Assembly: GCA_014379595.1 (NCBI GenBank)
Contig: JACMLM010000067.1
Coordinates: forward strand, 62,001-126,000
Source of the DNA: Anaerolineales bacterium
Lineage (GTDB): Bacteria > Chloroflexota > Anaerolineae > Anaerolineales > Villigracilaceae
Direction: 5' to 3'
Length of the DNA stretch: 64,000 bases
In this document: positions 53,808 to 55,004 of the stretch, piece after piece
Layout of the letters: each line of letters begins with the position of its first letter
Numbering within the stretch: the first letter of the stretch is position 1
Translations under genes and position numbers: made by a program
The notes under the pieces: generated by a model
The model's input: the letters and a program-made list of their open reading frames with translations, nothing else
The model's database searches: none
What the model was told of the DNA's origin: nothing

Positions 53808-54407
53808 TTATCTTGTGTTAACTGGATTCTCGTCATCCCCATCCCATAATAGCGGATTGGCTTCGATGTAATCAGTTTTGTTTTGCAGATCCTTTTCATT
53901 GCGAATCACGTGCTCATAATAATTTCGCTGCCAAATAGGCGTCTCTTTAAATTCAGGAAATTTCCATATTTCTTTTGTAACACGGGATTTGAATTGTGCA
54001 ATGATCGCGCCAAGAGATGCTGGTTTGGGCCCACGGGGTAAGGGCGACCCATCCATGCTGACCGAGGAAATGGCTTGCAATGGTTTTACATCTGAATTCG
54101 GGCTTGCTTGACTCTGGCGGGTCGCCCCTACGTTCTCGTGAATAAATAAAATTCCATGAAAATGATTTGGCATGACCGCACGCGCACCTAATTCAACATA
54201 TGGTAATCGTTTGGGTAACTCCAACCATTCCCTTTCAACAATTTTTCCGACCTTGTTCAATTTCATTTCTTGATTCTTTATTTCCCCAAATAAAAATTCC
54301 CTTTGCCATGTCACAATGGTGACAAAATACGCACCCGCCTGAGAATAATCATATCCTTTCAAGCGGATGGATCGGCGATGATGAACCTTAGGATCAAACT
54401 TGACCAT
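53808..54407 (-). CDS. REP-associated tyrosine transposase (RAYT, IS200-like)
   Basis: About 199 residues from an ATG at 54407 (MVKFDPKVHHRRSIRLKG). AYFVTIVTWQREFLFGEI, the HUH motif VMPNHFHGILF and IWQRNYYEHVIRNEKDL (catalytic Tyr) followed by YIEANPLLW identify the TnpA_REP family, single-strand-specific nucleases that move or cut REP elements. Residues ~93-123 (from ATRQSQASPN to MDGSPLP) are encoded by a 94-bp repeat element lying in frame in the gene. A second copy lies just upstream (54435-54528). The family call is firm; whether the enzyme is still active is unknown. Confidence 0.88.
   Translation of the reverse strand: MVKFDPKVHHRRSIRLKGYDYSQAGAYFVTIVTWQREFLFGEIKNQEMKLNKVGKIVEREWLELPKRLPYVELGARAVMPNHFHGILFIHENVGATRQSQASPNSDVKPLQAISSVSMDGSPLPRGPKPASLGAIIAQFKSRVTKEIWKFPEFKETPIWQRNYYEHVIRNEKDLQNKTDYIEANPLLWDGDDENPVNTR
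54038..54131 (-). repeat. 94-bp REP-like element inside the RAYT gene (copy E2)
   Basis: Bounded on the plus strand by GTAAGGGCGACCC and GGGTCGCCCCTAC, near-inverted ends. Ungapped alignment by hand to 54435-54528 gives about 61 of 94 identities, including the central TTGC and GGTT words. It is translated as part of the transposase. Confidence 0.75.
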
Positions 54408-54434
54408 GATGGAATTATAAATGGTGTATCGCAC

Positions 54435-54528
54435 GTAGGGACGACCCGTCAATGCCATAAGACGTAATGATTTGCGACGGTTCTTTGCCTGACCATGACC
54501 TATGTTCACCCTGACCGGTCGCCCCTAC
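54435..54528 (-). repeat. 94-bp REP-like element upstream of the RAYT gene (copy E1)
   Basis: Ends GTAGGGACGACCCGTCA and TGACCGGTCGCCCCTAC are inverted with two mismatches in 17. Same length and orientation as the copy inside the gene. It ends 28 bases before the transposase ATG. Confidence 0.8.
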
Positions 54529-54608: not shown

Positions 54609-55004
54609 ATGCACAAACATAAAAAACATGGACACGGACATTATTTCCCAGGCGGAATGATTTGGTGGTTTATCTTTATGATGATGTTCATGAAGGGAGA
54701 ATGGTGGCCCTGGTTTTTGATACCAATTGGGTTCTGGATAGTTTGTGGTTCTATGTTCAAAGAAGATGCGCAAAAACCTGAAAGAAAGCATCCGCCAAAA
54801 TCGCACTTTGACTCTGCCCCTCCCCCCGTGCCGAGAGCTGACCCTGTACCCGTCCCTACGGGACAAATCCATCGCGCGGACTTGCTGCCCCTCACCTGTC
54901 CAAAATGCGGCGGACCCGTCCGCTCTTACGAGGTCAAATGGACAGGTGCGCAATCGGCGGCCTGCTCGTATTGTGGGTCAAATCTTCCCATGAAGAAGAC
55001 ATAA
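54609..55004 (+). CDS. Small His-rich membrane protein with a C-terminal zinc ribbon, unknown
   Basis: 131 residues. A His/Lys-rich N-terminus (MHKHKKHGHGHYFPGG) precedes two hydrophobic segments (MIWWFIFMMMFMKGEWWPWF and IPIGFWIVCGSMF). A Pro-rich linker (PPPVPRADPVPVPTG) leads to a zinc ribbon with LTCPKCGGPVRSYE and CSYCGSNLP. The two Cys pairs imply a metal or nucleic-acid/protein binding fold. AAAAGGA lies before the ATG. The linker coding region has CCCGTCCCTACGGG, which resembles nearby repeat ends. It stands alone between the RAYT locus and the 35-bp repeats. No function can be assigned. Confidence 0.6.
   Translation: MHKHKKHGHGHYFPGGMIWWFIFMMMFMKGEWWPWFLIPIGFWIVCGSMFKEDAQKPERKHPPKSHFDSAPPPVPRADPVPVPTGQIHRADLLPLTCPKCGGPVRSYEVKWTGAQSAACSYCGSNLPMKKT

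Follow-up and report, generated by a model that had tools for sequence, protein, structure and literature searches.

The window, a 64,000-nt stretch of Anaerolineales DNA, encodes on its minus strand a RAYT (TnpAREP) transposase whose gene carries a REP-like element in frame, and a second element of the same length lies just 5' of the gene. The features of the locus are as follows.

53808..54407, minus strand: RAYT / TnpAREP gene, 199 aa, stop codon included (53808-53810), likely start ATG 54407-54405
53853..53870, minus strand: Tyr motif YIEANP, residues 180-185; Y180 and N184 are invariant in both alignments
53928..53933, minus strand: W-Q pair, residues 159-160, the W motif of subclass 2.4
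54038..54131, minus strand: in-gene double-foot REP-like element, 94 bp, codons 93-124, falling in the linker that joins the HUH strand to helix alphaC
54038..54050, minus strand: right arm of the in-gene element, GGGTCGCCCTTAC in the gene-strand reading
54119..54131, minus strand: left arm of the in-gene element, GTAGGGGCGACCC, codons GTA GGG GCG ACC C..
54156..54164, minus strand: HUH motif H-F-H, residues 82-84; H82 and H84 are invariant in both alignments
54408..54509, minus strand: N-terminal extension of the mechanical ORF, probably untranslated, judging from where the homologue alignment begins
54435..54528, minus strand: upstream 94-bp element, in the same orientation as the in-gene copy, 27 bp 5' of the start codon

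The first codon of the mechanical ORF, a GTG (54509), falls within the upstream element. Because the aligned part of the homologues begins at M-x-KFDP or a close variant (a pattern that one of the homologue searches itself looked for), we took the ATG at 54407-54405, rather than GTG 54509, as the likely start. With this start, the second element, initially described as just upstream, lies wholly 5' of the gene. Divergent from the RAYT gene, positions 54609-55001 encode a small protein with two CxxC pairs; its homologues (45-64% identity) adjoin RAYT in three of six orthologue loci (L036, L037, L242), there on the 3' side.

The protein displays the HUH and single-tyrosine Y---NP signature of the family in the form of NHFH and YIEANP, and H82, H84, Y180, N184 and P185 are invariant in 62 aligned proteins. 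The NCBIfam model NF047646 (REP_Tyr_transpos) matches it in two stretches with an E value of 1.2e-19 and 70.6 bits against a cut-off of 80, and all 62 aligned proteins match this model at E<=0.001. The Pfam model Y1_Tnp gives 15.8 bits, under its cut-off of 23. We suppose that the sub-cut-off profile score is owed to the insertion. When the family profile was compared with PDB sequences it found 4er8 (TnpArep; E 1.3e-07), a RAYT bound to a REP hairpin, and the predicted structure of the window protein (pLDDT 83.6, with a confident core) retrieved the same entry first in Foldseek (E 2.3e-06, TM 0.50/0.59), followed by IS200/IS605 transposases. The motifs and the fold thus bear out the initial annotation of the gene as a RAYT transposase.

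Between the HUH strand (residues 82-89) and the helix at 132-147, the predicted structure has pLDDT values below 50 at residues 95-101 and 109-122, and averages of 54, 52 and 43 over the blocks 91-100, 101-110 and 111-120. The inner element, which had been placed at residues ~93-123 and covers codons 93-124 when counted from the ATG, therefore encodes most of this unstructured HUH-alphaC linker. Among homologues the loop ranges from 6 to 76 aa in length. Residues 93-123 are not conserved in homologues minus the repeat; the nearest paralogue in the same genome has a 13-aa loop there.

Read on the gene strand, the in-gene and upstream elements are identical at 61 of 94 positions without gaps and in the same orientation, exactly as first noticed; with one element reversed, 47 positions agree. 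Their arms (13+13) share 23 of 26 letters and their 68-bp interiors 38 of 68, more than any of 20,000 shuffles of one interior (mean 17.1, maximum 31). The inverted ends ascribed to both elements are also there: all four 12-nt ends equal GTAGGGGCGACC with at most one mismatch each. Two orthologues, in G027 (73/94) and G030 (72/94), have in-gene copies that match the upstream copy better than the window's own in-gene copy does.

The same ends recur throughout the window's genome (G000; 4.47 Mb, 72 contigs), where we counted 29 exact GTAGGGGCGACC sites, 14 forward and 15 reverse, against two forward and none reverse for the pattern read backwards. The genome search for the element ends thus did return further copies. 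Complete 94-bp elements (up to three mismatches in 24 end positions) number four, two of them in the window and one each on contigs C16 and C35, and there are five 61-bp elements (up to two mismatches), so the two elements belong to a dispersed repeat family with at least two sizes. This family resembles REPs in its GTAG foot at a palindrome and in its dispersal, with a copy number that is low for a REP. The inner element is an in-frame insertion in a variable linker, and its family is common to the upstream and dispersed copies. Chance similarity of two short stretches might be argued from the 61-position match itself and from the six matches to the 12-nt end (up to two mismatches) in the window, a number reached in 5 of 100 shuffles. 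Yet the interior match, the genome-wide excess of exact ends and the presence of the insert in seven orthologues make this explanation vanishingly improbable: the match between the two elements is real and lies beyond chance.

Intact 94-bp elements also occur in genus members that have no close orthologue of this RAYT (for example G019, G025 and G028), and the only 94-bp match in G004, G021 and G023 is the in-gene copy. The idea that the 94-bp family pairs one-to-one with the RAYT clade of the window was not supported, since genomes free of the orthologue also carry the elements. The 61-bp family, with ends as in the 94-bp one, was seen in 30 of 101 genomes, 28 of these in the window's genus, and copies of 60 to 63 bp occur in the window's genome. 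Some loci hold more than one RAYT gene or repeat: G021 has two RAYT genes ~2.9 kb apart, one of them the window's orthologue, and G056 likewise has two ~2.9 kb apart (L203 and L204), and in G030 (L242) a REP array lies upstream of the RAYT start, with left ends at -782, -602, -423 and -243, ~180 bp apart.

We surveyed the loop in homologues drawn from the window's genome, from 100 of its near relatives, from 400 genomes across the phylum, from 40 further regions, and from 80 named loci of many phyla that were the best 80 of 561; all counts cover matches with retrieved DNA. Of 188 matching ORFs, 16 with no HUH or no alphaC by patterns were set aside, and identical cores were collapsed to leave 150 genes, or 149 distinct ones after removal of one gene present twice (L094 = L042). 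Loops of 36 nt or more numbered 146, or 145 without the duplicate, and 136 genes had enough flank for the flank tests.

Palindromes proved to be concentrated in this loop. Exact inverted arms of at least 9 nt occur in 111 of 145 homologue loops and in 3 of 290 control segments of equal length taken from these genes, and the palindrome exceeds synonymous-codon shuffles (60 each, p<=0.05) in 117 of the 145 loops compared with 9 of the 290 controls. Taking one gene per 70% core-identity cluster gives the same picture, both for the arms (72/98 against 1/196 controls) and for the shuffles (77/98 against 5/196). A sliding scan found arms of at least 9 nt anywhere outside the loop in 29 of 150 homologues, and in 123 of 150 with the loop included. 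The trait spans lineages: among 68 named loci (from the best 80 of 561), 50 have a palindromic loop, and these fall under 16 of the 19 phylum labels, with 'none' counted as a label. When genes of other RAYT types from this lineage were examined at the equivalent place, 1 of 34 was palindromic (arms of at least 9 nt), namely L264, a member of the second family described below; in this count the windows of L281, L294 and L295 begin at an upstream HxH, and correctly placed ones have arms of 6, 7 and 6. The whole-ORF maximum for these types, 15/34, is not comparable, as their ORFs extend past the start into flanking repeats. In viral contigs, a relative of A1 was encoded in 2 of 49 pattern matches.

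Is it the peptide or the DNA that is kept? A recognisable left foot (GT[AG]G, mostly GTAGGGGC) is present in 100 of the 123 loops with a stem, and it is read as GTA GGG (phase 0) in 50 and as xGT AGG (phase 1) in 50; the third phase is absent because it would place TAG in the frame of an open gene. The right foot, found in 102 of the 123, is read in phases 0, 1 and 2 in 40, 52 and 10 loops. Across homologues the left foot thus encodes VGA or RG, and the right foot APT, SPL or PY. On a core-only tree, built by FastTree from a short alignment of 145 genes so that change counts are rough, reading phase changed at least 31 times among 95 genes with both feet (50-shuffle mean 55) and stem family at least 58 times among 97 genes (50-shuffle mean 80). 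The foot phases and the changes on the tree thus point to DNA words that persist as the encoded peptide varies. The palindrome's presence or absence changed 19 times, and 50 shuffles gave a mean of 19.8 and a minimum of 17, that is, no phylogenetic clustering; this fits frequent decay and renewal as well as it fits function.

These patterns weigh on two readings in which the DNA palindrome would be secondary or would act as RNA. A protein-level function, with the encoded peptide (VGAT...GSPL) conserved in the transposase and the palindrome a by-product, could draw on VGAT (ARAT in one) and DGSPLP being kept in the seven orthologues of the window's clade. The same DNA words are, however, read in different frames across homologues, the palindrome exceeds synonymous shuffles in most loops, the synonymous sites of the arms are themselves conserved (see below), and the loop is predicted to be disordered, all of which renders this reading very improbable. 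Regulation at the mRNA level, by a transcript hairpin that limits translation or read-through, would profit from the palindrome being co-transcribed with the RAYT gene, and where the window's right arm has changed from C to T, the sense strand keeps a G.T pair. Across 124 loop stems the mismatches nevertheless displayed no sense-strand wobble bias (G.T 20, A.C 25, other 39), with wobble pairs not above A.C mismatches; this test gave no pointer to an mRNA hairpin, a role that we consider very improbable.

If the loop holds a repeat of the kind that the gene lives with, it should resemble its own surroundings more than those of other RAYT genes. Indeed, an exact word of at least 14 nt is common to the loop and the gene's own 1.2-kb flanks in 49 of 136 genes, compared with 77 of 2040 comparisons with the flanks of other RAYT genes and 2 of 540 for control segments of the same genes. 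Cluster representatives behave alike, with such sharing in 31 of 88 for own flanks, 33 of 1320 for foreign ones and 0 of 352 for controls. The excess means that loops often carry a repeat found around their own gene, though by this strict measure fewer than half of them do. The idea of self-targeting raised in the initial annotation fits in so far as loop repeats resemble their own flanking repeats far more often than those of other RAYTs; the targeting itself stays putative.

The window's clade offers a closer view of what is conserved. Six orthologues with 72-82% protein identity to the window RAYT carry the insert at the same place, making seven with the window's. Across these seven, the eight arm codons have a mean synonymous codon identity of 0.845, compared with 0.448 for 55 columns of matching conservation and degeneracy; none of 100,000 resamples attained the arm value. 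The contrast shrinks when all columns are pooled (arms 0.83, interior 0.61, rest 0.59). Mean nucleotide identity is 0.92 for arm codons, 0.79 for the rest of the gene and 0.60 for the interior, and the order arms > rest > interior holds in 21 of 21 orthologue pairs, although neither the pairs nor the seven orthologues are independent. The arms are not perfect throughout: mismatches number three in the right arm of G054, two in the left arm of G021 and one each in the window and in G004; in two orthologues the arms are clearly decayed. In six of the seven, a REP end (up to three mismatches in 13) starts 19-68 bp 5' of the start codon. The conserved synonymous arm sites are compatible with the regulatory site in the coding sequence that the initial annotation raised as a possibility; such a site stays putative.

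This pattern bears on the possibility that the insert is a tolerated passenger subject to renewal, in which REPs land mostly near their own RAYT, only in-frame linker insertions survive, loops decay and are refilled, and the gene gains nothing. Such turnover is in line with the numerous phase and stem-family changes on the tree, which imply that inserts are often replaced, and with the build-up of REP arrays beside the gene, as in G030. Yet in the window's clade there is one insertion place at which the interior drifts and the arms do not, synonymous sites included. Since renewal of the whole element would have renewed the interior too, it is the ends alone that are held in this clade. We regard the passenger reading as unlikely, though it deserves serious weight.

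From the repeat family, the insertion site, the own-flank resemblance and the end conservation, we favour an interpretation of the in-gene repeat as a retained, putative RAYT recognition site. A double-foot REP of the type found beside the RAYT gene would have inserted in frame into the beta3-alphaC linker. After insertion, the interior would drift freely and the inverted ends would be held as DNA, synonymous positions included, presumably since they still serve as a substrate or binding site of the RAYT; both the binding and this reason for conservation are our conjecture from the sequences. Two routes could be envisaged. The protein may bind its own gene, perhaps together with the upstream copy by the start codon, and so restrain its own expression; or cuts by the RAYT at the ends may keep them uniform by copying from nearby REPs. 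That a REP inserted into the linker and that its ends have since been held as DNA, as a putative RAYT substrate or binding site, is the account we consider reasonably probable.

A second RAYT-like gene in the window's genome (L264:1483-2106 plus flanks; G000:C22:79774-80394) carries a palindrome that is of a non-GTAG type and unrelated to the first. Its product reaches 25.7 bits with Y1_Tnp (cut-off 23) and has the motifs THYH, FQ and YIHANP, and AGACCTCCGAGGTTT-TAA-AAACCTCGGAGGTCT lies in frame in its HUH-alphaC linker, with AGACTTCCGAAGTCT repeats on both sides of the gene. AGACYTCCGARGTCT occurs 23 times in G000 and its backwards pattern not at all. Among 48 distinct homologues, 28 have loops of at least 12 aa, and 24 of these 28 show arms of at least 9 nt (controls 0/110); matches of at least 14 nt link 12 of the 28 to their own flanks, compared with a fraction of 0.129 of 280 comparisons for foreign flanks and 1 of 110 controls. 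In 21 aligned copies, namely those with a recognisable S-E/G word pair, each in its most palindromic placement, 310 of 315 pair cells are Watson-Crick against 254.6 with the right letters redealt (0 of 5000 as high), a figure that is overstated because the copies are related and were picked for palindromy. Coordinated stem changes are seen, for example, at column pairs 5-29 (C-G to T-A) and 11-23 (G-C to A-T). None of 33 pattern matches in viral contigs encodes a relative of this family, and distant matches were found in 10 plasmid records.

By motifs, L264 resembles subclass 2.1 (NH[YF]H, FQ, Y[IV]HLNP in Table 1 of PMC6006769). For that subclass the same table gives REP as 'no', the accompanying text describes no REP-like sequences near those genes, and terminal inverted repeats with another consensus are given for 20 subclass 2.1 genes (TIRYTs). 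An in-gene palindrome like that of L264 was not found in the literature searched by topic, as distinct from the letters of the repeat, supplements aside.

The two families together raise the tentative idea, which we hold to be possible but doubtful, that REP transposases have come convergently, under selection at the DNA level, to carry their own palindrome in the HUH-alphaC linker, once with the GTAG type (2.4-like, many phyla) and separately with the AGACYTCCGARGTCT type (2.1-like), the palindrome being a putative self-recognition site. If so, the transposase would act on its own gene through the in-gene copy. A cognate REP locked in frame bears on the role of RAYTs for their hosts and on how REPs and RAYTs stay matched, and it offers an experimental handle: synonymous recoding separates the palindrome from the protein, and changed activity, expression or REP movement would then point to self-recognition. 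For many RAYT genes, moreover, the loop records the repeat family with which they lived.

The closest known systems are other RAYTs. That the in-frame element is an exceptional find was not supported: in-frame REP insertions between the HUH and Tyr motifs were published for subclass 2.4 by Quentin et al. 2018 (PMC6006769), whose main text calls them a unique and predominant feature of that subclass and mentions some members, apparently of the small subclasses 2.7 and 2.8, that also have a REP insertion. According to the same source, subclass 2.4 corresponds to RAYT group 4 of Bertels et al., and its motifs in Table 1 are NH[IFV]H, WQ and YIxNNP. The window gene fits this subclass by its motifs, with one letter of the Y motif off (YIEANP against YIxNNP). 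The two share the NH[IFV]H, WQ and Y---NP motifs, a variable beta3-alphaC insertion, and long double-foot GT[AG]G...C[TC]AC REPs both beside the gene and in frame within it, and the lengths compare as a median of 194 aa for the subclass and 199 aa for the window RAYT (PMC6006769). In contrast to the elements described there, that of the window gene is a 94-bp double-foot with a long interior. As the in-gene REP has already been described for subclass 2.4, the window gene is a further case of a known phenomenon. Palindrome counts and the own-flank and synonymous-site tests were not found in the passages of PMC6006769 consulted. We see as useful additions the counts, the resemblance of loops to their own flanks, the conservation of synonymous sites and a parallel case in a second RAYT family.

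REPs of the GTAG type within genes were the subject of a 2013 paper of which Di Nocera is reportedly the first author. In that work (PMC3733652), GTAG-tagged palindromes were found within coding genes, some encoding 20-30 residues, and the likeness to the window RAYT lies in a palindrome inside a coding gene. The targets named in its text are host genes, many of them of DNA synthesis and repair, whereas the host gene in the window is the RAYT itself; the sections consulted, supplementary target list aside, do not describe REPs inside RAYT genes. On the biochemical side, TnpAREP proteins of other groups bind and cut single-stranded REPs, with GTAG and the palindrome needed to varying degrees (PMC8266576, in the parts consulted). 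Rickettsia palindromic elements (RPEs), which figure in the background of PMC3733652, are similar in that a mobile palindrome gives rise to an in-frame peptide at tolerant sites of proteins. RPEs, however, strike many unrelated genes, whereas in the present case the element sits in the gene of the very transposase presumed to move it.
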